A stretch of 64,000 nucleotides of DNA from Ruminococcus bovis (GTDB taxonomy: Bacteria > Bacillota > Clostridia > Oscillospirales > Acutalibacteraceae): positions 1,113,941 to 1,177,940 of the forward strand of contig NZ_CP039381.1 in NCBI RefSeq assembly GCF_005601135.1. Reading direction: 5' to 3'. Of the stretch, positions 6,901 to 33,779 are shown one piece after another (position 1 is the first letter of the stretch; each line of letters starts with the position of its first letter). The translations under genes were made by a program, and so were the position numbers. The notes under the pieces are model-generated. The model was not told where the DNA came from. It worked only from the letters and a program-made list of their open reading frames with translations, and ran no database searches.

Positions 6901-7125
6901 CAGACAGGTCAAAGGTATATTCATCATAAAGAAAAAGGCAGTAAGGTCTTGCTATTTGTGAGAGAGTTTAAGAATGATTCTTTTGGTAATGTGTCGCCTT
7001 ATACATTTCTTGGTGAGGCAACTTATGTCAGCCATACCGGTTCAAAACCGATGAATATTACATGGAGATTAGAAAAACCAATACCTGCAAGGTTCTTAAA
7101 GAAAACTAATAAATTGGTGGTATAA
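3982..7125 (+). CDS. PLD nuclease-SF2 helicase-DUF3427 protein
   Basis: The 1047-aa protein has three recognisable parts. An N-terminal phospholipase-D-like nuclease domain carries an HKD motif (HAKAYVFYRD near residue 217, followed by GSSNLS). The SF2 helicase core follows, with Walker A ATGTGKT near 346, a DEFH box near 441, GLTATPER and a C-terminal helicase motif QQLGRGLR near 650. The C-terminal region is of the DUF3427 type. The family is thought to act in DNA repair or defence. It is the second gene of a likely operon with the SWIM protein before and a NUDIX hydrolase 5 nt after. Processing of damaged or foreign DNA is inferred from the domains, not shown. Confidence 0.88.
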   Translation: MLKDGLYEQVINESLQKDIDESVDKFSEIKEIDKAESSKILSQYITEIIEKGLNYISDDNLSDRVSLINKIVSVIKEETEDEDFDSFSVNSKAEQLLSVFDKKNSVKSVNNKVKTIRPETSIAQSSLFTGAVHEPQMYTELKKEIVSSDRIDMLVSFVKWSGLRLIINELKEFTQNGGELRIITTSYMGATDVKAIEELRKLPNTKIKVSYDTKVTRLHAKAYVFYRDTGFTTAYVGSSNLSNAAISSGLEWNVKVTKKDLPETILKIEATFESYWNSKEFEYYVESQKERLSRALKAEKHFDNNIESQSYTLDILPYSYQQEILDKLQAEREVKGYYRNLVVAATGTGKTVISAFDYRNFRRNNKGKPCRLLFVAHREEILKQSLYTFRAVLKDANFGELFVGKNKPDSIDNLFVSIQTFNSQKFNEVTTNDFYDYIIVDEFHHAAAKTYQKLLDYYKPTVLLGLTATPERMDGKSILSYFDNRIAAEIRLPEAIDRKLLCPFQYFGVTDNVDLDSLKWSVGGYDKKELSKIYTFSGMVANRRADLVVNSLIKYVTDINDVKGLGFCVSIEHAEFMSDYFNKCGIPAIFLTGKSSDEERNSAKDKLVNGDVKFIFVVDIYNEGVDITEVNTVLFLRPTESLTVFLQQLGRGLRLSEDKECLTVLDFIGQANKKYNFEDKFSALLSNTTRGITREIKDGFVSVPKGCYIQLERKAEKYILDNIRSSYGNTAGLVARIASFEEDTGKTLTLSNFLQHYRLDPRAVYKYSTFSGLCVKAGKLDNFSEPIEEVMSKAFVRFTSIDSRRWIKFLIDFLNNIDNIDFEKLSSVDKRMLQMFYITVWSKAIEDFSDEEVLRNLYSLSDSPIMKQELIELLEYKFNSIDFVDETIDLGFDSPLDVYCTYSQRQLLAGLDYLNFSAMRQGVIWLKDKGIDVFLVTLNKSDKDYSPTTMYNDYSINEELFHWQSQSTTSETSQTGQRYIHHKEKGSKVLLFVREFKNDSFGNVSPYTFLGEATYVSHTGSKPMNITWRLEKPIPARFLKKTNKLVV

Positions 7126-8270: not shown

Positions 8271-8423
8271 AATTAATAAGTGTCAATATGTTAAGTTGTT
8301 AGTAACCGTCAAATAAGCCAGCGTCTTGAAGCGGATTTGAAAACATGCGAAAATATCCAAGTAAATAAGTTGTAGACGAACATCTACAATAGACTACAAC
8401 AAAAAACGATTGGAGAGTTTCGT

Positions 8424-8756
8424 ATGAACAAAGGTATCAGAACATTAAGAAAAGAACAGAACCTGGCTCTTTGGGCAAACCAAGTAGAGAAATGCAACAA
8501 CAGTGGGTTAAGTGTTGCGCAGTGGTGCAGAAATAACAATATTCCTGTAAGTACATTTTGGAGCAGACAGAAAAAGGTATACGAAGCCTACACTCAAAAA
8601 AACAGACCTCAATTCATAGAAGTGTCAGTAGAACCAGAAGTAAACGCTAACTCACCTATGATTTCTATCAAAAGAAATGATTTCACAGTAGAAATCAATA
8701 ATGGTGCTGACGAAGCTACAATAACAGCTGTGTTGAGGGCAATGAAAAATGCTTAA
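8424..8756 (+). CDS. tnpA: IS66 family protein TnpA
   Basis: The 110-aa protein is the first small gene of IS66 elements. It has an N-terminal helix-turn-helix-like region (LALWANQVEKCNNSGLSVAQ, then WCRNNNIPVSTFW) that probably recognises the element ends. The gene is complete here, ends 8 nt inside tnpB, and follows TTGGAGAG. In copy 2 the same gene is frameshifted because a run of four A is reduced to three. Confidence 0.9.
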   Translation: MNKGIRTLRKEQNLALWANQVEKCNNSGLSVAQWCRNNNIPVSTFWSRQKKVYEAYTQKNRPQFIEVSVEPEVNANSPMISIKRNDFTVEINNGADEATITAVLRAMKNA

Positions 8757-9105
8757 TGATTTTAATTGTAATTGCCCGATATACCTTGCAAGTGGATATA
8801 CTGATCTACGCAGAGGAATAGACGGACTTGCAACAATAATAGAAAAGCAGTTTAAGCTTGAGTCTTGTACAAATGCTTTGTTTCTCTTCTGTGGACGAAG
8901 AACGGATAGAATTAAAGGTTTGTATTGGGAAGGTGACGGATTTCTGCTTCTGTATAAAAGGCTTGAAAAAGGTAAGTTTCAATGGCCTCGAAAATCTGAA
9001 GAATGTGTCACAATAACACCTCAGCAATATCGTTGGTTAATGGAGGGACTTAATATAATCCAGCCTAAGTCAACACAAAAAATAAGTGGAATAAAGTTCT
9101 CATAA
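8749..9105 (+). CDS. tnpB: IS66 family insertion sequence element accessory protein TnpB
   Basis: The 118-aa protein is of the IS66 Orf2/TnpB type: it has YLASGYTDLRRGIDGLA near the N-terminus and FCGRRTDRIKGLYWEGDGF in the centre, both signature stretches of the family. It is needed together with TnpA for IS66 transposition in studied members. It overlaps the end of tnpA by 8 nt and is identical in both copies. Confidence 0.95.
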   Translation: MLNDFNCNCPIYLASGYTDLRRGIDGLATIIEKQFKLESCTNALFLFCGRRTDRIKGLYWEGDGFLLLYKRLEKGKFQWPRKSEECVTITPQQYRWLMEGLNIIQPKSTQKISGIKFS

Positions 9106-9154
9106 AATGGCTTAAATACTGTACTTTTGCCTTGTTTTGTGGTATAATATAGGT

Positions 9155-10715
9155 ATGATAATCAAGGATAAAACAGTGAAACAATTACTATTTCACTGGA
9201 TGAATATAATGAACTAAAATCATTAAAAGAGCACTGTTCAGAACTTGAAACACAGGTGAAGTGGCTGATGGAGCAGCTTAAGATAAATAATAAAAAGACC
9301 TATGGCTCAAAAAGTGAACAATCGGAATATATTTACGAACAGCTTAGTCTTCTTCATAACGAAGCAGAGCTCTACTCAGATGTAGAAGCAAAGGAAGAGG
9401 TTAAGGTGGCTTCTCATACCCGAAAAAAGAAAGAAGCTACTCTTGACAAATTACCAGAAAACATCAAGACAGTTGTTGTAGAGCATACTCTTCCCGAAGA
9501 AGAAAAGGTATGTCCTAACTGTAATGAACAGCTTGAGGTTATTGGTAAGGAAGTAAAGAAAACATTAAAAATCAAACCTGCTGAGGTGATTATTCAGGAG
9601 GATGTATATTACACCTACGCCTGCAAGAATTGTGAGAAAACGGTATTGAGACCCCAATAGTAAAACACCACAGGAAAAGCCAGTAATCAAAGGCAGCTTT
9701 GCTTCACCAGAAGCAGTGGCTCACATTATGACACAGAAGTTTGTGATATACTCACCACTCTATAGACAAGAACAAGACCTGAAAAGGCAAGGTGTTGAAT
9801 TAACAAGACAGACAATGTCTAACTGGATACTTAAAGCGAGTCAGCTGTGGTTAGAACCAATATATGAGAAGTTAAGAGAGCTTCTCATAAAAGAGGAAGT
9901 AATCCATGCAGATGAAACAACACTGCAGGTACTGAAAACCAAAGAGAAGCCTACTCCAAAGAAAGCATATATGTGGCTGTACAGAACGAGTGGATGCTCT
10001 GAAAAGAATATCGTACTGTATGATTACAAACCAAACAGAAAGATTGAAAATGCGGAGAACTTTCTTGAAGGTTTTAATGGCTACATACACGCAGATGGTT
10101 ATCAGGGATATCACAAACTTGGAGATAACTTCACAGTTGTTGGTTGCTGGGCGCATTGCAGAAGAAAATTTGCTGAAGCATTAGAAATGATAAGCAAGGA
10201 CGAACGAGCAAACTCAACAGCTGGAATTGCTTTAGATTACTGCAATCAGCTATATGCAATAGAAAAGAAATAGCTGATAAAAGCTATGAAGAAATACTAA
10301 AGGTGCGACAAGAAAATCAAAGCCAATTCTTGACGCATTTTTGTGCTGGGCTGAAAAGCAAAGCATAGCATTTAAAAGCAAACTTGGTGGTGCGTTTACC
10401 TATCTTAAGAATAACGAGAAATATCTCAGAAGATATTTAGAGGACGGCAGATTAGAAATTGACAATAACCGAGCCGAAAGAAGCATTAAGCCTTTTGTGA
10501 TGGGCAGAAAGAATTTCCTGTTTGCCAATACTGAGTCAGGAGCTACTGGCAGTGCTGTTATGTACAGCATAATCGAAACAGCCAAAGAGAACAATCTGAA
10601 TCCGTTTAGATATCTGACCTATATCTTCAAAAAGTTCCCTAATATTAAGGAAAATGAAACGGCTGATATTCTACTGCCTTGGAATGCACCAGAGGAGTGC
10701 AAAGTTAAAATTTGA
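9155..10715 (+). pseudogene. tnpC: IS66 transposase TnpC, multiply frameshifted (copy 1)
   Basis: Pieces of one IS66 DDE transposase follow each other in different frames: N-terminal coiled coil and zinc-binding region (9256-9660; CPNC..CKNC), catalytic core (9716-10273; HADETTLQV, HADGYQGY, GCWAHCRRKF) and C-terminal part (10341-10715; EIDNNRAERSIKPFVMGRKN). The frame breaks each fit one missing A in a short A-run: near 9172 (A4 where copy 2 has A5), near 9638 and 9663 (GAGAAAACGG and GTAAAACACC), near 10264 and near 10314. Several breaks are shared with copy 2. As read, the gene is not functional. Confidence 0.9.
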
Positions 10716-10845
10716 TACATATGTGGAAATCCCTGCGAGAACAAACTCGCAGGGATTTTTTAGGATGATTTGACGGTTACAGTTGTTATGCTAAACAATA
10801 TAATAGATAAGTTAAAATCCTAACGTTAGTAAATTATAAGCGTTA

Positions 10846-11550: not shown

Positions 11551-11901
11551 ATGGAGATTACATATACACGTCAAGGAGATTATTTGCTGCCTAATTTATC
11601 GTTACCCGAACAGGACAACCGACCAATCGGCTTGTGGGGACAACAACACCTTCGCTATATAAAACGAAGCCGCCCGATTTTTTACACCAATCTGCTCACT
11701 AAATGCAAGCTGAATGAATACCTTGCCGACATTGATGAACAGGCTCAGAAGATGTACGACGAGCTTGTAAAGGCTTTTGCAAAGGAAGAAGGCTGCACTG
11801 AGCAGCTAAAAGCTACCGATCAAATGCTATGGGTAAGCAGGATGAATAATGTTGTCCAGCGAGCGAGAGAAGTTGTGAATGCTGAAATAATCTATAACTA
11901 A
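11551..11901 (+). CDS. tnpV: Transposon-encoded protein TnpV
   Basis: The 116-aa protein matches the TnpV family (TYTRQGDYLLPNLSLPEQ at the N-terminus, YTNLLTKCKLNEYLADID in the centre). TnpV proteins occur in many Clostridia conjugative elements and their function is not established. AAGGAGG lies just upstream, inside the preceding small gene. A homologue lies overprinted inside the large helicase gene at 49967-50320. A strong terminator follows. Confidence 0.9.
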   Translation: MEITYTRQGDYLLPNLSLPEQDNRPIGLWGQQHLRYIKRSRPIFYTNLLTKCKLNEYLADIDEQAQKMYDELVKAFAKEEGCTEQLKATDQMLWVSRMNNVVQRAREVVNAEIIYN

Positions 11902-12020: not shown

Positions 12021-13394
12021 TTATTTGTCTTTCAGAGAAATCGAAATATCAAATCCAAGTGCATCAAATATCCGGATTAATGTGTCGATATTGTATTTGT
12101 AAATTAAAGTATCGATATCTGTAAATCCATTGATTTCATTTTTAGGAGTAAAAAGATATCCTTCGATTTCCGTATTGTTTTTTATATTTCGTGCGAACAA
12201 TTCGTGTTGACGTCCGAAAACAGGAATAGATTCAAACAAATCATATATTCTCGGATTGTGCTGACGAAGTGATGTGCAATAAGGCATTCTGTCAAAAGGA
12301 ATGCACCCAAAGCTTAGATAAAGATTTGATAGTAAACTGCATCTTTCAAAATCAATCTGCCTTTTAATAATACGATTATTCATTTTGTGAAGCAAATAGC
12401 GTAATACATTAGATCCTGGCTTGGATTCAATTATTAATTCTCGACATTGATCAAGTAGTTCATAGATTTTAATCGTTTTTGCTCGGGAGATAATTTTACT
12501 TTTTATGACATCATAATATGTTTGATCGCTACAAACAAGTTCTGTTAATGACATTCTAACATTCGTTAGGAAGCTCATCATTTCTTTGTATTCAATCGAG
12601 CTTGTACTAATCTTAATCTTTGGGCCAAATATTTCAGAAAGATTATCCCATTCACAAGGTCGTATAGATACCTCATAACTATCGATAATTAATACTGACA
12701 TATTTTTATCAAGAATACGAATAAGATCATTGTGAATAGAAAATCTGACGGCATAGTTTTCTAAAATCTCGTGTTTTGTAAAAGCTATTACTCGATCAAA
12801 TTTGCTGGCATTGGATGTTGCTGCAGTAAAAGTGACCTCATAATATATCCTTTGATTGACAAAAAACGGTTTTATTTTCTGCACATAGTATCGGTCATTA
12901 TATGTTACGGGAAATCTATTAGTGCTCGGTAACTCAATCCGCTCAGCTATTCTTTTATAATAGTCAGATAATTCCGTATCGGTATTTAACGGGAAATCCT
13001 GGATGTTTTGTAATACTTCAAAATTGAAAGTGTTCTTTAAATATATTTTGATTTTAAGAAGATGTTCATAATATTTTAACATCAAACGTTCAGAACCGTC
13101 TTTGTCTAACGTGTAATGAGACACTGATTTCTGGAGCAACTCGTGAAATTTGTATAAGAATCTTAAGTTCCCGTGTCGTTGCATATCTTTTAGAGCTTCA
13201 ACGTTGACCTCGTAATCGTTAGGATTTACATCGTGACCATTTGAATATATCTTTATAGCAATGTACTCTACAAGATTTCGGACTTGACTAAGAATGTTTT
13301 GGCTTAGTATTCCCCTGTCGTCAGCAGAAAACCGAGTAATATTTTCACAGATTACTTTGTTTGTATCCAGAATTGATTTATCGACACGTAACAT
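12021..13394 (-). CDS. Unknown protein of the GHKL-ATPase operon, C-terminus probably replaced
   Basis: The 457-aa protein begins MLRVDKSILDTNKV after AGGAGG and is mostly helical; I recognise no catalytic motif. It is the last gene of the minus-strand ATPase unit, 166 nt after the DUF6339 gene. The final 24 residues (YNIDTLIRIFDALGFDISIS...) read like the C-terminus of an XRE-type antitoxin/HTH protein. They follow a duplicated IDTLI (residues about 428-439), so the original C-terminus appears lost by recombination at an IDTLI-coding microhomology. The gene is therefore probably truncated and may be non-functional. Confidence 0.6.
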   Translation of the reverse strand: MLRVDKSILDTNKVICENITRFSADDRGILSQNILSQVRNLVEYIAIKIYSNGHDVNPNDYEVNVEALKDMQRHGNLRFLYKFHELLQKSVSHYTLDKDGSERLMLKYYEHLLKIKIYLKNTFNFEVLQNIQDFPLNTDTELSDYYKRIAERIELPSTNRFPVTYNDRYYVQKIKPFFVNQRIYYEVTFTAATSNASKFDRVIAFTKHEILENYAVRFSIHNDLIRILDKNMSVLIIDSYEVSIRPCEWDNLSEIFGPKIKISTSSIEYKEMMSFLTNVRMSLTELVCSDQTYYDVIKSKIISRAKTIKIYELLDQCRELIIESKPGSNVLRYLLHKMNNRIIKRQIDFERCSLLSNLYLSFGCIPFDRMPYCTSLRQHNPRIYDLFESIPVFGRQHELFARNIKNNTEIEGYLFTPKNEINGFTDIDTLIYKYNIDTLIRIFDALGFDISISLKDK

Positions 13395-13560
13395 TTATTT
13401 TCCTCCTAACAAAAGACATCTGTTTAATAATTTTCTTGTTGTCTCGAAATGTTTCAAGATTATATTCAGCGGATAGTTTAGGGTATATTTTTAACTCTTG
13501 GGGAAGTGTTTGATCCTGAGTTTAATACTTTCAAAGAATCACAACAATGATAAATTTTAA

Positions 13561-14307
13561 TTATAGTCTTTTCATATAATCATAGGCGATTGCTTCAATT
13601 TCGCTCGATTCAAGGGTGTCAATTATAGCAACAGCTCCATAGTGATTTAAGTATGAGTCACAACACTTTCGGAATAGTGTTGTACAGGAATTGCCCCGTT
13701 CATCTTGTAATCGTTTGAGTGCCATTAGCAAACCTTTAACAATATCTCGGTTCATACTGAATGATTGATCAAATAAATCTTTCTGGATTTGCTGAGCCGA
13801 AAACAGTGTTTCGGTTAGATACCAAGGATTTGTATCATCTTTTTCTTCATCATAAGTCAGATAACCGGACCACCACAATCTTGATATTGCATTATAGTAC
13901 AGTAAAGATGCTCTTCCTTCCGTTGCGAAAAATCGTCTGTCTAAACGAACTGTTCCGTCGTCTTTTTTCCATCGATCAAGGACGTATTGCTTAAAGGTAA
14001 TGTGGCACAATGCAGACCATAGCAAAGGATCGGATGCCTGTAACGGACTGAGCTTGTCTTTGTACTCACTATAAAGAATCTTGATATTAATCAAATCATT
14101 TCTGTTTTTTGTTTCCGAATCTTCTCCTCCTGTAACAAGTTGAATATTAGGAACAGTAACAGAAGAGGTTTTATAGAATTCATCCAATCCCTTTGAAGAA
14201 AAGTATTCGGTCAACCAAGGTTCATCGGAATAATACTTGTCTTTATTGTTGTTTAAATCTGTTTTCAAATACTTATATGCGTCTTTTGTAAAATATATAA
14301 GATTCAT
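13561..14307 (-). CDS. DUF6339 family protein
   Basis: The 248-aa protein has the N-terminus LIYFTKDAYKYLK and the central 'WSALCHITFKQYVLDRW' and 'LLYYNAISRLWWSGYLTYDE' blocks that I associate with DUF6339, a family seen in operons with GHKL ATPases and restriction-modification genes. Its start overlaps the stop of the upstream gene by 4 nt (ATGA), indicating translational coupling. No enzyme motif is evident; it is likely a structural or adaptor subunit of the ATPase system (inference). Confidence 0.7.
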   Translation of the reverse strand: MNLIYFTKDAYKYLKTDLNNNKDKYYSDEPWLTEYFSSKGLDEFYKTSSVTVPNIQLVTGGEDSETKNRNDLINIKILYSEYKDKLSPLQASDPLLWSALCHITFKQYVLDRWKKDDGTVRLDRRFFATEGRASLLYYNAISRLWWSGYLTYDEEKDDTNPWYLTETLFSAQQIQKDLFDQSFSMNRDIVKGLLMALKRLQDERGNSCTTLFRKCCDSYLNHYGAVAIIDTLESSEIEAIAYDYMKRL

Positions 14308-15242
14308 AGTGCTTCATCCTCTTGCTGAATAGTTGACCAATCAATCATTTTCTGCATAAGTGTATTAATTGAATCTCCTACGACATCACCTAATAGTTTA
14401 TTGGCGATTTCAAAATCCGATTGATTGCAGGTAGCCAACTCATCTATACCCATTTTGTTTAAGGCGTTGTATATAGATTCAGCCCAAATGGTCCCACGAT
14501 AATGGCAATCAGGATCCTCCTCAAGTTCCTCTTCACGACGTAACCTTGCGATAGCTTCGGTGATTGCGGGAAAAACAAGTGCTCCTTGCAGGAAACGAGC
14601 CAAAACATTCTTTAAGTGTTTTTTAGTGCTTAGTTTTGCGTAGTTTTTATATTCAGAATCAGGTAGTGAAATTGTAATGTAGTCAGTAAGCGAAGGATCG
14701 GTTTCTTCAACTGATGCAAAATAAACTTTCGGTTCAGTAATAGCTGAATTGGAATTGATAAAAACTACTCCCGCCATATTCTTTTCGAGTATTGTATTCA
14801 GCTTTATTGTTAAGCCCGGCTCGTTTGCAATGATATCACCTTTTCTCAGTTTAAAGCCCGGATATCCGCCAAAGTAATCCTGATTAAATTCCGGCAAGCA
14901 GTAATTATTTATATTCTGTGCAGCTACTATTGCAGCGCTTATATCAATTGAGTCGGTAACATTCTTTTTTGGTAATGAAATAACAGTAATATCTTCGTTG
15001 CTCATCTCAAAAACTTTTCTGAATGATGTTCTGAAACAAACTACTCTGATAAATACTTTTGCCAGACCTTGTGAAATTAAAGATTGTATTCCCGATCCAG
15101 TTAATGAATATGAAAGTTCAATGTCTATTGAATTTCCCGTGTCACTGTGTGAACCAACAGAAAGATTGAACGCGCAATTATCAAAATCGTTTGTATATTC
15201 ATTAAGAACTGGATGAGGATATTCAATTGCTCTGTTTTTCAT
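14304..15242 (-). CDS. Hypothetical protein of the GHKL-ATPase operon
   Basis: The start at 15242 is chosen because GGAGG sits 6 nt before it; an upstream in-frame ATG at 15272 has no such site. The 312-aa product begins MKNRAIEYPHPVLNEY, has a beta-rich first half and a helical C-terminal half with a charged stretch (RLRREEELEEDPDCHY). It overlaps the end of the ATPase gene by 20 nt and the start of the DUF6339 gene by 4 nt, so the three are one translationally coupled unit. No known domain was recognised by eye. Confidence 0.7.
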   Translation of the reverse strand: MKNRAIEYPHPVLNEYTNDFDNCAFNLSVGSHSDTGNSIDIELSYSLTGSGIQSLISQGLAKVFIRVVCFRTSFRKVFEMSNEDITVISLPKKNVTDSIDISAAIVAAQNINNYCLPEFNQDYFGGYPGFKLRKGDIIANEPGLTIKLNTILEKNMAGVVFINSNSAITEPKVYFASVEETDPSLTDYITISLPDSEYKNYAKLSTKKHLKNVLARFLQGALVFPAITEAIARLRREEELEEDPDCHYRGTIWAESIYNALNKMGIDELATCNQSDFEIANKLLGDVVGDSINTLMQKMIDWSTIQQEDEAL

Positions 15243-16017
15243 CTGAAACCTCCATTGAGAAAACAGGAACAACTGCCATTATTTCGTTGTTGCTGAATTC
15301 TACATACAAAGTATTGATACCTTTTTTCAGAGAAATCGGACCGATCTTTTCGCTGTTAACTTCAATACGAGGGGATCCTTCGAGTTTTAGATTTCTCACA
15401 ACAAGTGAATCCTGTTTATCATCATCACGTCCTGCAAAATACTGAATGAATACTTTTTCATAATCATTGGGTGAATTAATAAAGCATCGATATTTGTTTC
15501 CTGCAAGATAAAAAGTTCGATGTTCTACTATCTTTGGAGAAACAATTTTTACTTTACCTTTACCCGTTGAAACACCCGGTGATTGTCCATCAGGATTAAC
15601 TACTGGGATTCTGTTTTTTGATCTCTTTTTGCGCTTTTTCTTTCCTGTTTTTACGCCTGATTTTTGTGTTTCGGAACCCGATGCACTTTCGGCAGATTCA
15701 TACTGACTATTGTAGAATACTCGCCCGTCGTATGACTTGATTTCTTTTATCTTTACGTCTGTCTTTAATCCATCAGATCCTTCTGTTGCGCCGCTTGAAT
15801 CGGTAGCGTCAGGCAAATAGTTTCCTATGCCTGCATCCATTTTATCGGTAATGTCTGCACGATCATAATCATCTAATACCGATTGTATTTCTTTCCCGAT
15901 TTTTCGTATATATCTGCCTGCACGGTTTTTTAAGGTGATGTTATCGGTAATGTTTTTGGCTCTCCATTCAGTGTGCTGAGGTGGTTCGGCACTACGCAAT
16001 GTTTTGCTCAATCTCAT
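15223..16017 (-). pseudogene. C-terminal part of the GHKL ATPase gene, separated by IS66
   Basis: This open frame continues the coding sequence at 18517-19680 once the IS66 copy and one 8-bp duplication are removed. The join reads ..FSVVIIVNDVGE then MRLSKTLRSAEPPQHTEW.. without a break. It contains the conserved-looking 'SAEPPQHTEW' stretch, a Lys/Arg-rich linker (GKKKRKKRSKNR, about residues 125-137) and a beta-rich end. The ATG at 16017 is internal to the original gene. Whether the fragment is translated is unknown; it lacks the ATP-binding part. Confidence 0.85.
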
Positions 16018-16109
16018 TTCACCTACATCATTAACAATAATAACGTAACCGTCAAATCATCCTAAAAAATCCCTGCGAGTTTGTTCTCGCAGGGATTTCC
16101 ACATATGTA

Positions 16110-17668
16110 TCAAATTTTAACTTTGCACTCCTCTGGTGCATTCCAAGGCAGTAGAATATCAGCCGTTTCATTTTCCTTAATATTAGGGAACTTTTTGAAG
16201 ATATAGGTCAGATATCTAAACGGATTCAGATTGTTCTCTTTGGCTGTTTCGATTATGCTGTACATAACAGCACTGCCAGTAGCTCCTGACTCAGTATTGG
16301 CAAACAGGAAATTCTTTCTGCCCATCACAAAGGCTTAATGCTTCTTTCGGCTCGGTTATTGTCAATTTCTAATCTGCCGTCCTCTAAATATCTTCTGAGA
16401 TATTTCTCGTTATTCTTAAGATAGGTAAACGCACCACCAAGTTTGCTTTTAAATGCTATGCTTTGCTTTTCAGCCCAGCACAAAAGCGTCAAGAATTGGC
16501 TTTGATTTTCTTGTCGCACCTTTAGTATTTCTTCATAGCTTTTATCAGCTATTTCTTTTCTATTGCATATAGCTGATTGCAGTAATCTAAAGCAATTCCA
16601 GCTGTTGAGTTTGCTCGTTCGTCCTTGCTTATCATTTCTAATGCTTCAGCAAATTTTCTTCTGCAATGCGCCCAGCAACCAACAACTGTGAAGTTATCTC
16701 CAAGTTTGTGATATCCCTGATAACCATCTGCGTGTATGTAGCCATTAAAACCTTCAAGAAAGTTCTCCGCATTTTCAATCTTTCTGTTTGGTTTGTAATC
16801 ATACAGTACGATATTCTTTTCAGAGCATCCACTCGTTCTGTACAGCCACATATATGCTTTCTTTGGAGTAGGCTTCTCTTTGGTTTTCAGTACCTGCAGT
16901 GTTGTTTCATCTGCATGGATTACTTCCTCTTTTATGAGAAGCTCTCTTAACTTCTCATATATTGGTTCTAACCACAGCTGACTCGCTTTAAGTATCCAGT
17001 TAGACATTGTCTGTCTTGTTAATTCAACACCTTGCCTTTTCAGGTCTTGTTCTTGTCTATAGAGTGGTGAGTATATCACAAACTTCTGTGTCATAATGTG
17101 AGCCACTGCTTCTGGTGAAGCAAAGCTGCCTTTGATTACTGGCTTTTCCTGTGGTGTTTTACTATTGGGGTCTCAATACCGTTTTTCTCACAATTCTTGC
17201 AGGCGTAGGTGTAATATACATCCTCCTGAATAATCACCTCAGCAGGTTTGATTTTTAATGTTTTCTTTACTTCCTTACCAATAACCTCAAGCTGTTCATT
17301 ACAGTTAGGACATACCTTTTCTTCTTCGGGAAGAGTATGCTCTACAACAACTGTCTTGATGTTTTCTGGTAATTTGTCAAGAGTAGCTTCTTTCTTTTTC
17401 GGGTATGAGAAGCCACCTTAACCTCTTCCTTTGCTTCTACATCTGAGTAGAGCTCTGCTTCGTTATGAAGAAGACTAAGCTGTTCGTAAATATATTCCGA
17501 TTGTTCACTTTTTGAGCCATAGGTCTTTTTATTATTTATCTTAAGCTGCTCCATCAGCCACTTCACCTGTGTTTCAAGTTCTGAACAGTGCTCTTTTAAT
17601 GATTTTAGTTCATTATATTCATCCAGTGAAATAGTAATTGTTTCACTGTTTTTATCCTTGATTATCAT
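16110..17668 (-). pseudogene. tnpC: IS66 transposase TnpC, multiply frameshifted (copy 2)
   Basis: It has the same layout as in copy 1. The start region is intact here (MIIKDKNSETITISLDEYNE, A5 run). The frame is lost near 17395 (A5 where copy 1 has A6), near 17190-17165 and 16560 (shared with copy 1), near 16488 (two bases fewer than copy 1) and near 16334 (AAGCCTTTGTG, one T fewer). The fragments 16549-17106, 16325-16519 and 16110-16328 hold the core and C-terminal parts. Not functional as read. Confidence 0.9.
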
Positions 17669-17717
17669 ACCTATATTATACCACAAAACAAGGCAAAAGT
17701 ACAGTATTTAAGCCATT

Positions 17718-18074
17718 TTATGAGAACTTTATTCCACTTATTTTTTGTGTTGACTTAGGCTGGATTATATTAAGTCCCTCCATTAACCAACGATATTGCT
17801 GAGGTGTTATTGTGACACATTCTTCAGATTTTCGAGGCCATTGAAACTTACCTTTTTCAAGCCTTTTATACAGAAGCAGAAATCCGTCACCTTCCCAATA
17901 CAAACCTTTAATTCTATCCGTTCTTCGTCCACAGAAGAGAAACAAAGCATTTGTACAAGACTCAAGCTTAAACTGCTTTTCTATTATTGTTGCAAGTCCG
18001 TCTATTCCTCTGCGTAGATCAGTATATCCACTTGCAAGGTATATCGGGCAATTACAATTAAAATCATTAAGCAT
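17718..18074 (-). CDS. tnpB: IS66 accessory protein TnpB (copy 2)
   Basis: The protein is identical to the 118-aa TnpB of copy 1, including the TDLRRGIDGLA and GDGFLLLYKRLEKG blocks. It is the only intact gene of this IS66 copy. Confidence 0.93.
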   Translation of the reverse strand: MLNDFNCNCPIYLASGYTDLRRGIDGLATIIEKQFKLESCTNALFLFCGRRTDRIKGLYWEGDGFLLLYKRLEKGKFQWPRKSEECVTITPQQYRWLMEGLNIIQPKSTQKISGIKFS

Positions 18075-18398
18075 TTTTCATTGCCCTCAACACAGCTGTT
18101 ATTGTAGCTTCGTCAGCACCATTATTGATTTCTACTGTGAAATCATTTCTTTGATAGAAATCATAGGTGAGTTAGCGTTTACTTCTGGTTCTACTGACAC
18201 TTCTATGAATTGAGGTCTGTTTTTTTGAGTGTAGGCTTCGTATACCTTTTTCTGTCTGCTCCAAAATGTACTTACAGGAATATTGTTATTTCTGCACCAC
18301 TGCGCAACACTTAACCCACTGTTGTTGCATTTCTCTACTTGGTTTGCCCAAAGAGCCAGGTTCTGTTCTTTTCTTAATGTTCTGATACCTTTGTTCAT
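18067..18398 (-). pseudogene. tnpA: IS66 TnpA, frameshifted (copy 2)
   Basis: The product is the same as in copy 1 for the first 83 residues. Then ATCAAAGAAATG replaces ATCAAAAGAAATG (one A lost), and translation stops after EMISQ at 18132 instead of continuing to 18067. Confidence 0.85.
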
Positions 18399-18516
18399 AC
18401 GAAACTCTCCAATCGTTTTTTGTTGTAGTCTATTGTAGATGTTCGTCTACAACTTATTTACTTGGATATTTTCGCATGTTTTCAAATCCGCTTCAAGACG
18501 CTGGCTTATTTGACGG

Positions 18517-19680
18517 TTACATAATAACAACAGAGAAATGCGGTAACACATCATTTGTTGTTGTATTAATAAGCATACCGGTAGATCTGAATCGGGACAA
18601 AGACGCAGAATACTTTTCATCATATTTTACATAAATACTCAAATCATCTTTTTCGGCGATTTTGGCTTTTATTAACTCACCGTTTGTGATTGTTTCGTAC
18701 GTTTGACGAGTATATTTCAATTGAGGATCATCGCTGAATTCATTAAACAACAATTGCTCTAACGTTTTTGCTTCAATTACATATTCGATTTTAGGGGACT
18801 TAACAGTTACCGTCAGTTGGCCGTTCATAATAGCAAGAACAAAGTTTTTAATAATAGCAACGGCAGTAAGTCTTTCCCAATCAGTATAATCACTTTTCTT
18901 GAAACCGACAACAGCAACATCTGTTCCGATTTCAGAACGTTTAAAAACATCCATTTGCGCAATTGGACAATCATCGGAAGGCAAAAGCGGTCTTCCGGTA
19001 TAATCGTCAATTAAATATAGGTATTTACCGATAGGTTGAGTTGGTCGCATAGTACCGTTGTATTCTCTTTGAGTTGTAACTAATCGAGTTACTCCTTCGA
19101 ATGCTCTACCACCGTCTTTTGCTAATGTATTATAAAACACTAAGTTTAAAGCAGAATAGGCAAAAGGAGCATTTTTTCCGATACCAAAGCTTCCTGCGCT
19201 ATTGTCATTTTGTTTAATTGAGATACCCTCTGTATTAACCAGAAGATTCCAAAAAGATTGTTCGTGTGGTAATGCATTAACACCGTTCAATCCAACCGTG
19301 TTAAAATCACTCATTACAAGCATTGGAATCGTTTCACTATCTAATGCTGTTTTTATATTCGATAGAAATTCTGTTATTGAAGGCGTACATAGAGGACTGT
19401 TGTTCCAATATTCAATACTGCTATCTACCGCTTCTTCATAGCTTTTAAACATCGGATAATCACTTTTATTTACATCAAATAGTTCAAATTTTACTTTCAC
19501 AGGATTATCAGAGGGGAGAGAACTATCTTTTGCATCAAGAGAATTTTGACAGATTTCTCTTGCTAATCCATCCATTACGCCGCTTCCCTTGAACATAGTA
19601 ATAGCAGCAATATTGTTACCGCTTTCATTTCCGGTGCCCAATAAAGGAAAATCCCAGCAGATTTTTCCCACAAAAAACAA
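18517..19680 (-). pseudogene. GHKL (MORC/MutL-like) ATPase, N-terminal part, interrupted by IS66
   Basis: The 387-codon fragment holds a complete GHKL ATP-binding fold: N-box REICQNSLDAKD (about residues 42-53), MSDFNTVGLNG (about 121-131) in the place of the DxGxG motif, and the lid GSFGIGKNAPFAYSAL (about 162-177). Uninterrupted, the protein would be about 650 aa. ATPases of this kind (prokaryotic MORC relatives) are known beside methyltransferases and nucleases and are thought to form a DNA clamp in restriction-like systems. It starts 4 nt after the 73-aa gene. The IS66 insertion at residue 386 removes the C-terminal region. Confidence 0.9.
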
Positions 19681-19684
19681 CTCC

Positions 19685-19906
19685 TTATTTTAGTGTAAAT
19701 TTCTCATCTTTTGCATCTATGCCCATAAAACGATTTTTAGTGATTTTCAGCTCTTTTTCAAGAGCGGAAAAAATTTGTTTTACGTCTTCCTCGGTGTATT
19801 CGTAATTTGCTTTACTGGAACAGTTTCCCAGCAACCGCATCATTTCAAGAATTTTATTAGTTCTTGCTTCTGCTATACGTACAAATCTATCTCTTTTTGA
19901 TTCCAT
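19685..19906 (-). CDS. Small helical protein opening the GHKL-ATPase operon
   Basis: GGAGG 9 nt upstream selects the ATG at 19906, giving a 73-aa protein (MESKRDRFVRIAEARTNKIL...) that is almost wholly helical, with 'NYEYTEEDVKQIFSALEKEL' near the centre. It lies 4 nt before the ATPase gene, downstream of a terminator, and is thus the first gene of the second operon. The pattern of an arginine-rich first helix followed by an EF-like acidic helix recurs in small partners of such ATPases in my recollection, but no formal family is claimed. Confidence 0.75.
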   Translation of the reverse strand: MESKRDRFVRIAEARTNKILEMMRLLGNCSSKANYEYTEEDVKQIFSALEKELKITKNRFMGIDAKDEKFTLK

Positions 19907-20014
19907 AATTATAGTCCTCCTTTTATATCCTGACATTATTATACATAACGCGACATATATTGTCAATATATTTGCTGAATATTCTTAGAATATATTTTAT
20001 ATATCAAAATTATA

Positions 20015-20065
20015 GTTAAAAATAATAATGCAGCAGCCAAGATCACACTTGTCTGCTGCATTATT
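20015..20065 (-). terminator. Terminator between the RM operon and the ATPase operon
   Basis: The 13-bp stem AATAATGCAGCAG/CTGCTGCATTATT (20024-20036 and 20053-20065) overlaps the stop codon of the methyltransferase and is followed on the minus strand by ATTTTTAAC. It separates the two minus-strand operons. Confidence 0.85.
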
Positions 20066-20999
20066 ATTTTGATATATCATAAAGTATTTTCGCAATATTA
20101 TAAATAACAGGTACACATACTGAATTGCCGATTTGTTTGTAAACGCTTTTCAGTGATGTCTCGGCGATATTGAAACTTCCAGGGAACCCCATCAACGCTA
20201 AACACTCATCAGGTGTAATGGTGCGGATTCCGTAATTGTCTTTTATTATGGGTACTCGATCATACCAAGTGCCCATATTTGCTTTTAGGGTAAAACAGAT
20301 GCCGTCTTTGCTGGATTGTATCCCATAGTCTGAGAAACGATAGATTTGATTATCATCGATAATAGCCTTAACCATTTTATTGTATTTTGCTGTGTTTTCG
20401 GGAAGATAAAAGCTATCATCAACTTTGACAGTTTTATCAATAATATCAAATACACGTTTTTTCAATCTAACCTTTTCGGGAAAATGATAGGATTCACATT
20501 GATCAACGTTACGAAATGCAAGAAGATATGTTCTGGTGCGATGTTGAGGAATACCATAATCACAAGCGTCGGCAACTATATAGCGCAGATAATATCCTCT
20601 TGATACTAACTCGTTGTGAATTACATTAAATGTGCGTCCCTTGTCGTGCTCAACAAGATTAGCGACATTTTCAAGAAAAATGATTTGCGGATTAACGGCA
20701 TCGGTAATACGCATTATTTCAAAGAACAGGTTGCCTCGATTATCAATAAAGCCTTTTTGATTACCGCAAACCGAAAACGGTTGACAAGGGAACCCCGCAG
20801 TAATAATATCAACCTTTTGGAGTGAAGAAGTGATCAACTTCCGAACATCGCACTCAAACATAGTTGTTTCGGTGAAGTTTAATCTATAAGTTTTGCAGGC
20901 ATCGCTGTCTATATCATTTGCCCACACAATTTCAAATCCCGCCTGTTGAAATCCAAGGTCAATTCCGCCGATTCCAGAAAATAAGCTACCGATTGTCAT
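20064..20999 (-). CDS. DNA (cytosine-5-)-methyltransferase
   Basis: The 311-aa protein is a complete C5-cytosine methyltransferase: motif I LFSGIGGIDLGFQQAGF, the catalytic motif IV GFPCQPFSVCG with the Cys nucleophile, motif VI ENVANL, motif VIII QHRTRTYLLAF and the C-terminal motifs ALMGFPG and QIGNSVCVPV. The short target-recognition region (about 200-265) implies a simple palindromic site, which cannot be deduced. The ATG overlaps the stop of the preceding endonuclease gene by 4 nt, so they form a restriction-modification pair. Confidence 0.95.
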   Translation of the reverse strand: MTIGSLFSGIGGIDLGFQQAGFEIVWANDIDSDACKTYRLNFTETTMFECDVRKLITSSLQKVDIITAGFPCQPFSVCGNQKGFIDNRGNLFFEIMRITDAVNPQIIFLENVANLVEHDKGRTFNVIHNELVSRGYYLRYIVADACDYGIPQHRTRTYLLAFRNVDQCESYHFPEKVRLKKRVFDIIDKTVKVDDSFYLPENTAKYNKMVKAIIDDNQIYRFSDYGIQSSKDGICFTLKANMGTWYDRVPIIKDNYGIRTITPDECLALMGFPGSFNIAETSLKSVYKQIGNSVCVPVIYNIAKILYDISK

Positions 21000-21613
21000 T
21001 CTGTGATTTTTGAAACCATTTCAGGTGTTATGACACTTGCTGCTGTAATAACATCTACCTTACCTGGGGCCATAAAGCATTTAGTTTTTAAATTCGTAAT
21101 AAATGAATCAAAAGAATCGTCTGTTGTAAGTATAGCTTGGTTTAATCCCAATAAATCGCCGTTTTTAATTTTTCTTGATACAGTATTTGCTTCTTGTTCA
21201 TCCATTGTAAACAGATAATTTTCAGCTTTTCTATGAACATATTTTAGAGCAACTGCTTCCAGATCGGCTTGCTTGTATCTTTCTCGTAAACTTGTCTTCA
21301 AACTTAATGCAATTGGTCCTTCGGCTGTATAAAGAACTGCATCAAATTTTGCGTTAGGAACAAATGCTACTTGAGCCTGAAGATGAAGTGGCAGAATACC
21401 CTCTTTCACTAATAATGATGAAATAATTAATTCAAATATAATTCCATTAAGAGAATTATTGTGGTTAATATTTGCTTGCGTGTATTTATCCCAACAATAC
21501 TTTACATACTCACTCGCTGACATAGTGTTAGTAAGAAAATCAGGACAAATGTATTCGTTAAATACATTGTACCCTTTAGTCTTTCTTTTAACAATTTTTA
21601 GTTTTTTCAGCAT
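20996..21613 (-). CDS. Probable type II restriction endonuclease
   Basis: The 205-aa protein shows a PD-(D/E)XK-like arrangement: an acidic helix (SLNGIIFELIISSLL), then KFDAVLYTAEGPIALSLKTS with Asp and Lys in place of the D..xK active site, followed by conserved basic residues. It lies 9 nt after the HpaII-like fusion gene and overlaps the second methyltransferase by 4 nt. Context makes it the cognate endonuclease of that methyltransferase; specificity is unknown. Confidence 0.75.
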   Translation of the reverse strand: MLKKLKIVKRKTKGYNVFNEYICPDFLTNTMSASEYVKYCWDKYTQANINHNNSLNGIIFELIISSLLVKEGILPLHLQAQVAFVPNAKFDAVLYTAEGPIALSLKTSLRERYKQADLEAVALKYVHRKAENYLFTMDEQEANTVSRKIKNGDLLGLNQAILTTDDSFDSFITNLKTKCFMAPGKVDVITAASVITPEMVSKITE

Positions 21614-21622
21614 AAAAATACC

Positions 21623-23734
21623 TCATTTTATGAATCTAATTTGAAGATTTAATTTCAAATAGTATTTATTATTTTCTTTATATATAGTTCCGAACTGATG
21701 GCGACTGGTACTTGCAGTTTCAAACTTGGTGTTTTGGAGCAAGTAATTTTCAAATTCATTGTGATTGAAAAGGTGATAGCACAGCACTTCGCCATCTTCT
21801 CTTACAATTATATATCCTCCTGTAGCATCGGCTATTCCGTCCCAAGTTTTTCCGGGTAACATACCGAGGGCACATTCCGAAAGCATTCTTTTGAATTTAT
21901 ATGAATAGAACGGATGACCGTTTGAAAGGTTGTAATTCAAAGGATTTGTTTCTGTAATACTGTTCAGCGAATCAATTACTTTATTCAAACCGGAGCTATA
22001 ATAGCTTTTGAGCATATATCCGCATATTTTCGGTAAGTCTCCGTCAATCAGCATTAGATTACCTTCAAACACAGAGTTTTCCATTCCGACATACTCTATA
22101 TCACAAGCGTTATTATGCAAAACGGTAAACTTGTCTTTGAATTTCTTGGAACAGGTATTAAAATTACTCATAATCTCATCGTTGATCGGTCCGTTAACTT
22201 CAAAAATAAAGTTTGTTGTTTTACCAGCGTTAATAAGCGTAGACGGACCGCCGAGTCTTGATTTAATACTAAATCCCTGTACCGATTCAAATCCGGAGTT
22301 AATATCGTGAATCTTGATTCTTATGTCAGCTTTGTCCTCAGATGGAGCTTTGAGTGAAGAAATTCCTAAATTATCCAAAAAAGCTTCTGTATCTCTCAAC
22401 GAGAAAGCGCCCTTCGTATTGTTTTGCGATTTGGTGATTTCAGAATAAAGCTTGTCAGCAGCTGCTTTAAACTCTGTTACCGGCATTGTTCCGAGAACGC
22501 TTTCATCGGTTGTATTTATTATTGTAATGGTGTCTTCGCTCTGATTAACTCTAAATTCCAGTTTTCCAATGTTTTCCTGACGTAGTATTTTTATAATGTT
22601 ATAAAATACGTCATTCATTTTGTTGAGATTTTCATCGGCTGCGTATAGTTTTCCTATTTCCAACAATCGGAGGAAAACATATATTTCCGACCATTCGCCT
22701 TTATTTCCTGATAAATCGGGTTTATATGTTCCGTCTGCCATTTCAAGTACTTTTTTGATCTTTTTGGCGATTGCTTCAATAACAGGAACTGTTACGCTGT
22801 TTCCGAGTTGTTTGTATAAATGAGTATCAGCCAACGGTAAAACGAAATCATCGGGATAGCCTTGTAAACGAGCCCATTCACGAGGCGTCATTTTTCTGAT
22901 TCCGTAAGGATTGATTTCGCCTTTAATATTTGTGGTGGGAACGAGCTTTTTTTGCCTACTGTCTGTAACGAGATTTCTCTCTCTGCCCATACCACCGCAT
23001 ACTATTGCGCCTGCAACATCATCCCAATCTCTTATCTCATATCCAAAGCCGTTTCCTTTGGATTCGTGACGTTTTTTGTGAGCAATAAGGGTGTCCATAT
23101 ATTTGCTGCTCAAATAATACTTTGCCGGAACAGCTTCTTCTTCTCTGATATCCCAAAGAACTTTTGAGCTATCGGTGGCTTCGGGAAATATAAAATTCTT
23201 AGGTGCGATATCATTTCGAAAAGCAACAAGATAGATTCTTTCTCTGTTCTGTGGTACTCCGAAATTTCTACTGTTAAGAATTTTATCAAAGACTTTATAT
23301 CCCAAATCTTCAAAAGTTTTCTTTATAATTTTATAGGTGCGTCCTCTATCGTGAATAGTGAGTCCTTTCACGTTCTCACAAAAGATCACCTTTGGCTTAT
23401 GGTAATCGCAGATACGAGCCACATCAAGAAACAATGTGCCTCTGCAAGTGCCTTTATAGTCATCATCAAATCCCTGCTTACGACCGGCCATACTAAACGC
23501 TTGACACGGGAAACCGGCAAGACAGATATCAAACTCAGGGATTTGACTCTCATCTATTTTTGTAATATCTCCGGCGATTTCAAAATCGTCGTCAAAATTT
23601 GCCCGGTAGGTTTCCTGTGCCTTTTCATCCCATTCGCTAACGAATACTGTTTCTATTTCATCCTTGAAAGCACGGTCGAACCCTAAACGGATTCCGCCTA
23701 TGCCAGCGAACAAATCGATTGACTTATAAACCAT
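21623..23734 (-). CDS. Fused cytosine methyltransferase-HpaII-type restriction endonuclease
   Basis: GGAGT 8 nt upstream selects the ATG at 23734 (MVYKSIDLFAGIGGIRLGF), giving 703 aa. Residues about 1-335 are a C5-methyltransferase (motif I DLFAGIGGIRLGF; motif IV GFPCQAFSMAGRKQGF; motif VIII QNRERIYLVAF; QLGNSVTVPV). Residues about 350-703 resemble HpaII-family endonucleases, beginning with NKGEWSEIYVFLRLLEIGKL and containing IKSRLGGPSTLINAG and YSYKFKRMLSECALGMLPG. HpaII recognises CCGG, so CCGG is the predicted site. Modification and cleavage in one chain is unusual, because HpaII itself is encoded by separate genes. Confidence 0.88.
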   Translation of the reverse strand: MVYKSIDLFAGIGGIRLGFDRAFKDEIETVFVSEWDEKAQETYRANFDDDFEIAGDITKIDESQIPEFDICLAGFPCQAFSMAGRKQGFDDDYKGTCRGTLFLDVARICDYHKPKVIFCENVKGLTIHDRGRTYKIIKKTFEDLGYKVFDKILNSRNFGVPQNRERIYLVAFRNDIAPKNFIFPEATDSSKVLWDIREEEAVPAKYYLSSKYMDTLIAHKKRHESKGNGFGYEIRDWDDVAGAIVCGGMGRERNLVTDSRQKKLVPTTNIKGEINPYGIRKMTPREWARLQGYPDDFVLPLADTHLYKQLGNSVTVPVIEAIAKKIKKVLEMADGTYKPDLSGNKGEWSEIYVFLRLLEIGKLYAADENLNKMNDVFYNIIKILRQENIGKLEFRVNQSEDTITIINTTDESVLGTMPVTEFKAAADKLYSEITKSQNNTKGAFSLRDTEAFLDNLGISSLKAPSEDKADIRIKIHDINSGFESVQGFSIKSRLGGPSTLINAGKTTNFIFEVNGPINDEIMSNFNTCSKKFKDKFTVLHNNACDIEYVGMENSVFEGNLMLIDGDLPKICGYMLKSYYSSGLNKVIDSLNSITETNPLNYNLSNGHPFYSYKFKRMLSECALGMLPGKTWDGIADATGGYIIVREDGEVLCYHLFNHNEFENYLLQNTKFETASTSRHQFGTIYKENNKYYLKLNLQIRFIK

Positions 23735-23748
23735 AATTCTTACTCCAT

Positions 23749-24252
23749 TCAATATCCGATAATCAATATTCCTTTTAAAGGAATAGAAAACTTATTACTG
23801 GCATACATAGCATCAAAAAATTCGCAGACTTTTTTGTAGTCGTCATTCTTTCTGTACAGTAATCTTACTGCGATGCATAGATAGTCGGCGTCGTCCATAC
23901 AACACGATTCAAAGAAGTCTTTCAGAAACTGATAGTTTGTTACTGCTCTGCCGGCTTCAACTTCAATAACAATATTATTACTTGGATTAAATGCATCTGC
24001 TTCAAAGTTTAGTGATGGTTTACCGCATTCGCCGTATAATACAGGCATTTTGATCTTATCTTCGTCACGCTTACTTTTTTCAACGGAATATCCAATCTCT
24101 TCAAGTCCATTTGCTATCGAATGCAATACTTCATCGCTTTTTAATTTGTGTTCAGACGAATTAATATGATTGTTGTTACGATTAAATACATCAATAACTT
24201 TAAGTAAGTCATCTGTTATTCTTTGGTTTCTCGGAAAATATGACCACTTCAT
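23749..24252 (-). CDS. Putative PD-(D/E)XK-type nuclease of the RM operon
   Basis: The 167-aa protein has a central FEADAFNPSNNIVIEVEAGR (about residues 90-110) with Asp and an ExE pair that fit a PD-(D/E)XK core (D..ExE). Its ATG overlaps the stop of vsr by 4 nt, and it ends 14 nt before the fused methyltransferase, so it belongs to the same operon. It may be a further restriction or repair nuclease. No named family was recognised; the active-site reading is tentative. Confidence 0.6.
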   Translation of the reverse strand: MKWSYFPRNQRITDDLLKVIDVFNRNNNHINSSEHKLKSDEVLHSIANGLEEIGYSVEKSKRDEDKIKMPVLYGECGKPSLNFEADAFNPSNNIVIEVEAGRAVTNYQFLKDFFESCCMDDADYLCIAVRLLYRKNDDYKKVCEFFDAMYASNKFSIPLKGILIIGY

Positions 24253-24665
24253 TTTATACTCCTAACAGCTGCTTCTATTTTATCGGCACAGCCTGATAAG
24301 TCTTTTTTGATCTCATTACCCCAAAATCTTAATACTATCCATCCCTCGGACGTGAGCTTTTCGGTTACCTCACGATCACGTTGCATATTCTTTTCGATTT
24401 TAGGTATCCAAAAATCACGATTGGACTTAATCTCTTTGTTTTTGTTTTCCCAATCATATCCGTGAAAGAACTCACTGTCACAGAATACGGCAACTTTTTT
24501 TCCGATAAAGGCTATATCGGGTTTCCCGTAAACGGTTTTAGCGTTTTTTCTGTATCGTAAACCTCTGTGCCATAATTCTTTTTGCAGCATAGTTTCAATT
24601 TTGGAGCCCTTGTTTTTTACCGCTTTCATATTACGGCGACGTTGCTCCGGAGTATGATTGTCCAT
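24249..24665 (-). CDS. vsr: Very short patch repair (Vsr) endonuclease
   Basis: The 138-aa protein is a full-length Vsr: it has the N-terminal TPEQRRRNMKAVKNKGSKIE, the core KPDIAFIGKKVAVFCDSEFF with the catalytic Asp, then FWIPKIEKNMQRD and GWIVLRFWGNEI. Vsr nicks next to T:G mismatches that arise when methylated cytosine deaminates, so it protects the sites of the two cytosine methyltransferases downstream. It opens the RM operon. Confidence 0.95.
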   Translation of the reverse strand: MDNHTPEQRRRNMKAVKNKGSKIETMLQKELWHRGLRYRKNAKTVYGKPDIAFIGKKVAVFCDSEFFHGYDWENKNKEIKSNRDFWIPKIEKNMQRDREVTEKLTSEGWIVLRFWGNEIKKDLSGCADKIEAAVRSIK

Positions 24666-32353: not shown

Positions 32354-32389
32354 AGGTGGTATAATTTTTGGTAGAATTAAAAGAGAAAA

Positions 32390-32420
32390 GGCTTCGGAAA
32401 TCGCTTTCCGAAGCCAAAAA
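32390..32420 (+). terminator. Terminator of the element A integrase gene
   Basis: The 11-bp stem GGCTTCGGAAA/TTTCCGAAGCC (32390-32400 and 32405-32415) is followed by AAAAATTG; on the minus strand it is preceded by a matching T-run. It lies 5 nt before the att core. Confidence 0.7.
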
Positions 32421-32424
32421 TTGA

Positions 32425-32963: not shown

Positions 32964-33005
32964 AATAACCGTCTTGCAATTGCAGTGCAGGGCGGTTATT
33001 TTTTT
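32964..33005 (+). terminator. Hairpin terminator in element B left part
   Basis: AATAACCG/CGGTTATT (32964-32971 and 32993-33000) is followed by TTTTTAT. The inner part contains a second small palindrome TGCAATTGCA. Confidence 0.7.
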
Positions 33006-33763: not shown

Positions 33764-33779
33764 ACTTTATTCAACATAT

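Follow-up and report, generated by a model that had tools for sequence, protein, structure and literature searches.

A GHKL ATPase defence candidate interrupted by an IS66 element in Ruminococcus bovis, and the link of its relatives to C5-cytosine methyltransferases

Does a MORC-like GHKL ATPase encoded beside a cytosine restriction-modification system make use of the methylation marks that the system lays down? The question is raised by a locus of Ruminococcus bovis, within a stretch of 64,000 nucleotides (contig NZ_CP039381.1, positions 1,113,941 to 1,177,940; hereafter the window) of a 2.44-Mb genome held in one contig, in which an operon encoding such an ATPase follows an operon with two C5-cytosine methyltransferases (C5 methyltransferases). 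The tie of GHKL/MORC proteins to restriction genes was drawn in 2008 by Iyer, Abhiman and Aravind from gene order alone (PMC2292703). An earlier note on the window proposed that the ATPase operon is a distinct ATP-dependent defence complex that tells self from non-self by the marks of the first operon. Here we report that the operon carries an interrupted copy of the PADLOC phage defence candidate PDC-M33, and that the cytosine link of its relatives is real and specific but confined to some lineages.

By its profile matches, the ATPase operon is a four-gene module (a 73-amino-acid (aa) protein, the GHKL ATPase, a 312-aa protein and a DUF6339 protein) that corresponds to PDC-M33. Profiles A, B and C were all matched and the A-B-C order is kept, as in PADLOC-DB 2.0, the window differing by its split A gene and by the additional 73-aa gene. 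Among the four proteins for which the earlier note had suggested profile and structure searches, the 312-, 248- and 457-aa ones matched PDC-M33B, PDC-M33C and PDC-S53, whereas the 73-aa one, though conserved, matched no M33 profile. The N box, G1 and G2 motifs of the ATPase are invariant in the 15 homologues of alignment A1 (E37, Q40, D44, D115, T118, G120, G151, G154 and G156), drawn from seven same-phylum genomes and eight plasmids of Bacillota, an actinobacterium, Deinococcus and a haloarchaeon, and by eye the same motifs are present in the N-terminal part in the window. Late in the protein stands an ExxxH motif (E374 and H378, invariant in A1; EPPQH in the C-terminal part in the window), which marks paraMORC2 among the GHKL families tied to restriction genes (PMC2292703). 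These motifs place the window ATPase in the paraMORC2 type and, with the PDC-M33 profiles, bear out the view of the second operon as a distinct ATP-dependent MORC-like module without a Z1 gene; neither the ten region proteins scanned nor vsr matched Z1.

The AlphaFold2 model of M33B is beta-rich in its N-terminal half and helical in its C-terminal part, and that of the DUF6339 protein is mainly helical (pLDDT 92.4, pTM 0.90). Neither model had a Foldseek match that reached E 0.001, and PDB sequence searches with the ATPase, M33B, the DUF6339 protein and the small protein gave no convincing relative (best E 0.019). With VIA-align, M33B residues ~20-150 reached Z 8.3 (98 residues, 2.7 A) to GH2/fibronectin-type sandwiches and the DUF6339 protein at most Z 4.4, both at the level that the tool assigns to common arrangements.

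In the window, the ATPase that the earlier note had read as one gene of ~650 aa is spread over two open reading frames (19680-18517 and 16017-15223), between which lies a 2476-bp IS66-type element with terminal inverted repeats and a perfect 8-bp target repeat. The breakpoint falls 3' of the ATP-binding motifs and 5' of the ExxxH motif. Of the ten matches to the element in the genome, its own site counted, eight are full length, and a second copy within the window (8302-10780) is 99.7% identical. By coordinate arithmetic, the element plus one repeat measures 2484 bp, a multiple of three, and both ATPase parts share one frame, which points to a recent, simple insertion. Because the locus gives no intact readable ATPase, as PDC-M33 calls for, the window module is probably inactive, and with the ATPase gene interrupted it is unlikely that anything in the present strain now uses the methylation marks.

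To see the module in working form we turned to its relatives. A species-level genome scan found 389 ATPase relatives, of which the best 80 were taken; together with 15 earlier loci, and with near-copies removed, they gave 82 loci (numbered with L), which are the relatives closest to the query rather than an even sample. M33B was found in 80 of the 82, M33C (DUF6339) in 75 and both in 74; six of the eight loci lacking M33B or M33C reach a contig end, and the other two are divergent plasmid loci (L022 and L024). The order GHKL–M33B–DUF6339 recurs across relatives, and the GHKL and M33B genes overlap in 77 of 80 loci. The small protein was recognised in 34 of 82 loci (25 of the 40 with a C5 gene, 9 of the 42 without), a count that includes the doubtful L018, whose match looks unrelated and which was omitted from alignment A8. 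The ATPase occurs in only 2 of 148 related genomes, the window's own included, and the pattern is therefore patchy and mobile. An intact four-gene module is present in a same-genus genome (L133), where any methyltransferase upstream would be out of sight because a contig end cuts that side.

Some relatives are larger. In 14 loci, including L076 (13435-16359), L086 (4800-8357) and L047 (13508-16465), a large fifth gene, mostly of 800-1200 aa, usually stands directly behind DUF6339; the four scanned gave only helix-hairpin-helix/RNA-polymerase-alpha-CTD-like and sigma-70 region 4 matches. In two loci, L037 (3661-5223) and L045 (12805-14349), the DUF6339 protein is longer by a region of ~250 aa and reaches 514-520 aa.

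The neighbourhood survey bore on the association with methyltransferases, whose absence the earlier note had named as grounds for refuting its proposal, and the association is there: a C5 methyltransferase gene was found in 40 of the 82 dereplicated loci, and in 31 of the 51 whose flanks measure 4 kb or more on either side. In the 32 genomes chosen for their long loci, 29 of 66 C5 genes lay in the M33 locus versus 4 of 68 N6_Mtase matches (Fisher p 2e-7), where the C5 genes were hand-counted from PF00145 matches with pieces of one open reading frame merged, and the N6_Mtase matches (PF02384) were left unmerged with weak ones included, one of the four near M33 being the same open reading frame as a C5 gene. 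On the ATPase tree (L042, whose ATPase lies over two open reading frames, omitted), presence of a C5 gene required 10 changes versus 27.3 in shuffles, with 0 of 500 as low, a clustering that also reflects shared descent. Of the 25 rows of one clade, 22 have a C5 gene, and the remaining three run into a contig end no more than 1.5 kb downstream; the window ATPase, on a long branch, falls in a set in which 14 rows are C5-linked and one is not. An 18-row clade, 6 rows of which have flanks of 4 kb or more on either side, showed no C5 gene near M33, and PF00145 was unmatched in 5 of the 32 M33 genomes. Because of this clade and these five genomes, a cytosine mark is not universal, and use of the marks of a neighbouring C5 operon, as the earlier note had it, cannot be a general rule.

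A single C5 subfamily (METHYLTRANSFERASE), 522-600 aa long with a highly conserved target-recognition stretch, occurs at 16 M33 loci, downstream and convergent, downstream and codirectional, or upstream; alignment A11 holds 15 of the 16, which are 39-68% identical to its first row. No restriction enzyme was recognised among the scanned neighbours in six of these loci, only some open reading frames having been scanned: two transposases in L064; Rce1-like, RepA-like AAA and HTH proteins and a weak RlaP match in L048; a HEPN protein, an N_methyl protein and one without a family in L080; CTP synthase, GMP synthase and the large fifth gene in L047; a Schlafen-type helicase and an AAA protein in L059; and a Bro-N protein in L098. 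A vsr-like gene is present in L059 and also in L079. The ~170-aa insertion of the subfamily shows no conserved nuclease motif by eye.

We considered whether this methyltransferase is an M33-only enzyme and rejected the idea. Outside M33 loci the subfamily was found in 3 of 398 phylum genomes (E 1e-90 or better, at most three candidates per genome, so that members may be missed) and in 2 of 72,556 plasmid records (at least 80% coverage); a scan of viral contigs gave nothing. None of the five outside loci contains M33 genes, and in all five the methyltransferase lies directly behind an Mza-type operon (PADLOC MzaB, C, D and E in L135, MzaE in L139, MzaC, D and E in L140, MzaC in L141; L134 by eye), with a vsr-like gene next in four of the five (by eye). 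Because these loci pair it with Mza, the shared methyltransferase is not dedicated to M33. The subfamily tree requires three partner changes, and well-supported branches force two of these. Five Paenibacillaceae have a tightly adjacent C5 gene on either side of M33, and in four of them (L060, L084, L089 and L093) Mza cluster genes follow the C5–M33–C5 set, with MzaB confirmed in L060 and MzaC in L084. On the simplest view of this gene order, one methyltransferase type has either of two GHKL modules, M33 or Mza, as its partner. Mza, a MORC-type GHKL protein with Z1, MzaD and MzaE, likewise stands beside a C5 methyltransferase of the same subfamily, often with Vsr, but M33 lacks Z1, MzaD and MzaE and its GHKL protein matches M33A rather than MzaB; in the window, the Mza set found no match in the ten region proteins scanned.

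How might the module work? The reading we favour, at about even odds, is that working M33 relatives form a DNA-directed defence complex for which, in C5-linked lineages, the C5 methyltransferase marks the cell's own DNA. The GHKL ATPase would dimerise on ATP and clamp incoming DNA, M33B and the DUF6339 protein would act as structural/recognition or scaffold subunits, and the loaded complex would block or destroy the clamped DNA. In C5-linked lineages M33 would thereby occupy the role of a type II restriction endonuclease, a role comparable to the one thought to belong to Mza, the MORC–Z1 set, beside that methyltransferase subfamily; elsewhere another self signal would have to serve. Several observations count against this proposal. 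The literature found reports no activity for any M33 member, and searches of Pfam, of PDB sequences and of structures recognised no nuclease in the GHKL, M33B, DUF6339 or small protein, so a cutting step is hypothetical. In 42 of the 82 loci no C5 gene is in reach, and one of the five genomes without a PF00145 match (G428, locus L097) has no PF02384 match either, PF02384 being the one N6 family searched; that family is also the only control for island clustering. Many C5-linked loci hold an ordinary restriction enzyme (HpaII in the window, NgoFVII fusions in L068, L086 and L094, AlwI-like or NgoFVII-like genes elsewhere), so the methyltransferase need not serve M33 there, and the flanking open reading frames of C5-linked loci were scanned only in part. 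For a gene next to the C5 genes in Paenibacillaceae, PADLOC gives a type II nicking endonuclease but Pfam an HhH-GPD base-excision glycosylase. Finally, in the five outside loci the shared methyltransferase accompanies Mza and not M33. A bolder form of the proposal dispenses with cutting: the clamp and two non-enzymatic partners would load on DNA without the host cytosine mark and silence it by entrapment or compaction, as a prokaryotic counterpart of eukaryotic MORC silencing that swaps with Mza around one methyltransferase. A clamp could in principle act in this way, because worm MORC-1 entraps and condenses DNA (PMC8277788), yet we regard this version as improbable.

The lineages without a C5 gene would fit more easily if M33 were a self-contained defence, perhaps by abortive infection, that merely shares islands with C5 restriction systems and in which methylation plays no part. 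The 18-row clade and the five genomes without PF00145 speak for this, as do the cassettes of L038 and L041, which have no nearby C5 gene or N6-type motif candidate, and other neighbours such as type I systems, UvrD-type helicases, PLD helicases and PDC-M26-like genes. Island clustering, however, would enrich N6 and C5 genes alike, which is not what the genome counts show, and C5 genes are near-invariant in one clade and tightly flank M33 on both sides in the five Paenibacillaceae; we consider a self-contained defence somewhat unlikely. The Vsr or HhH-GPD glycosylase genes of several C5-linked loci could instead mark M33 as a MutL-like helper of the methyltransferase/Vsr machinery, repairing or controlling deaminated 5-methylcytosine and not attacking foreign DNA, and GHKL proteins do include MutL, the partner of Vsr (PMC2292703). 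That M33 occurs in genomes where no C5 gene was found would leave such repair without a substrate. Vsr and HhH-GPD-type glycosylases, moreover, generally accompany C5 methyltransferases, and a helper role therefore seems very unlikely. Least probable, in our judgement, is a modification-dependent, type IV-like system that attacks foreign modified DNA while the nearby C5 genes belong to separate restriction-modification systems. Genes of the DUF2357/PDDEXK_7 type, which is associated with modification-dependent restriction, do stand beside some M33 loci (scanned in L082; the same cluster in L025 and L087). In C5-linked hosts, though, the cell's own DNA is cytosine-methylated, making an attack on 5-methylcytosine self-harming, and whole clades share the C5 link as part of their gene order.

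The 457-aa gene, which the earlier note had counted as the last member of the operon, is better explained as a truncated neighbour. It begins 166 bp past DUF6339, and tight overlap is limited to the C-terminal GHKL part, the 312-aa gene and DUF6339; this gap and the IS66 element rule out the reading of five tightly overlapping genes, of which only that stretch stands. The protein corresponds to the N-terminal half of PDC-S53, a separate gene of other islands, and lacks the superfamily I helicase half that a complete S53 carries. Longer S53 proteins measure 921 aa (L125) and 934 aa (L126), and the C-terminal half of the former contains superfamily I helicase domains; because of these domains, the C-terminal half of the profile matches 254 of 398 genomes. 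As a candidate fifth M33 subunit it was rejected, no homologue at E 0.01 being found among the open reading frames of L010-L104. None of the four S53 loci examined, which include a broken copy and a fragmented one, contains M33 genes, and no S53 lies behind the intact module of L133. The half-length match and the S53 loci without M33 genes thus argue for a truncated neighbour and not a subunit. Around S53 we found McrBC-type genes in L126 (McrC PF10117 8.9e-96) and L127 (by eye) and type I restriction-modification-like genes in L125 (by eye). Just past the truncated end in the window is a 116-aa open reading frame (11551-11901, + strand) that by eye resembles a TnpV-like mobile-element protein, and a similar one lies near S53 in L125 (2834-3202).

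The restriction-modification operon contains all the genes that the earlier note had named, on the - strand in the order vsr, 167-aa protein, C5 methyltransferase–HpaII fusion, 205-aa gene and C5 methyltransferase, and ends in the terminator hairpin that it had described (z-score from folding energy against 200 shuffles; Table 1). The label 'nuclease' for the 167-aa protein found no backing: no family above chance in Pfam and PADLOC profile scans, and no PDB relative. Because relatives of the 205-aa endonuclease-like protein overlap a C5 methyltransferase gene in Desemzia and Bacillus subtilis plasmids, it is probably the partner of the adjoining 311-aa methyltransferase. With the HpaII fusion and this pairing elsewhere, each methyltransferase would have a cognate endonuclease, as expected of type II systems, and we read the operon as an ordinary double C5 restriction-modification operon.

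Table 1 Features of the locus and a parallel arrangement at related loci (positions 1 to 64,000 of the window unless a locus is named; E-values follow profile names).
Feature	Position	Strand	Evidence
vsr, very-short-patch-repair endonuclease, 138 aa	24249..24665	-	PF03852 4.3e-24; resembles annotated Vsr genes
167-aa protein, family not assigned	23749..24252	-	open reading frame list
C5-cytosine methyltransferase fused to HpaII restriction endonuclease, 704 aa	21623..23737	-	PF00145 8.1e-96; RE_HpaII PF09561 4e-131
205-aa probable restriction endonuclease	20996..21613	-	RE_BsaWI 0.0025, weak, under its cut-off
C5-cytosine methyltransferase, 311 aa, last gene of the restriction-modification operon	20064..20999	-	PF00145 1.8e-83
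Terminator hairpin, end of the restriction-modification operon	20019..20070	-	-28.6 kcal/mol, z -7.3; 3' side rich in U
73-aa small protein, first gene of the M33 module	19685..19906	-	alignment A8 with 33 other loci
GHKL (paraMORC2, PDC-M33A) ATPase, N-terminal part, ATP-binding motifs	18529..19680	-	PDC-M33A 1.6e-80
IS66-type insertion element	16045..18520	.	inverted ends, 8-bp direct repeats, seven more full-length genome copies
GHKL (paraMORC2, PDC-M33A) ATPase, C-terminal part, ExxxH motif	15223..16044, open reading frame from 16017	-	PDC-M33A 364-611, 1.7e-19
312-aa PDC-M33B	14304..15242	-	PDC-M33B 7.4e-46; AlphaFold2 pLDDT 87.5, pTM 0.64
248-aa DUF6339 protein (PDC-M33C)	13561..14307	-	PF19866 8.5e-44; PDC-M33C 6.3e-56
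457-aa N-terminal half of PDC-S53, helicase half missing	12021..13394	-	PDC-S53 1.4e-162, profile 1-434 of 900
C5 methyltransferase–NgoFVII fusions beside M33	L068 17594-19633; L086 8378-10465; L094 12903-14951		parallel to the C5–HpaII fusion of the window

Further genes of the window bear on its wider setting. A 1047-aa protein (3982-7125, + strand) with PLDc_2, ResIII, Helicase_C and DUF3427 domains has a layout like that of PLD-helicase genes near several M33 loci, and the defence island may extend to it. At 32-1906 (+ strand), the C-terminal part of a ribosome-protection/elongation-factor-like GTPase appears by eye to be joined to an NYN-type domain. A low-GC segment at 31184-38232 is a probable integrated mobile element, with tyrosine-integrase-like genes (31184-32353 and 36847-38232), a phage-type primase-helicase-like gene (33780-35408) and a repressor-like open reading frame, all by eye.

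Among the closest described systems, paraMORC2 shares the GHKL and ExxxH motifs, a sporadic distribution in Gram-positive bacteria and nearby DNA methylases and Vsr, but the consulted text of its description does not mention the fixed partners M33B and DUF6339 (PMC2292703). VcSduA, a Shedu protein of paraMORC3 type with proven anti-phage activity, also has an N-terminal GHKL ATPase, here fused to a nuclease, and its protection against phage needs both activities (PMC12137116); neither ATPase half in the window matched the DUF4263 nuclease or PADLOC Shedu. CapK, a GHKL kinase that controls immune operons and has HTH and STAS domains, represents another use of the fold (PMC13373217). PADLOC candidates are described as mostly unvalidated (PMC12988326), and papers on S. 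thermophilus (PMC11514479), TCS-like (PMC8011034) and P4-hotspot (PMC9122126) systems gave context only. Searches on MORC, GHKL and restriction, the origin of the PDC sets, Mza and methylation-associated defence yielded no paper that we recognised as describing the M33 module, and none naming PDC-M33, PDC-S53 or DUF6339 was found in a search that mostly excluded subscription papers and preprints. As far as we found, M33 is a catalogued but apparently undescribed defence candidate, to which the window copy is useful mainly as a pointer. How eukaryotic MORCs act on methylated or silenced DNA is poorly understood; a compact prokaryotic module with fixed partners, and sometimes one methyltransferase and no recognised restriction enzyme, would offer a direct test of whether a MORC-type clamp reads methylation and of how DNA is silenced.

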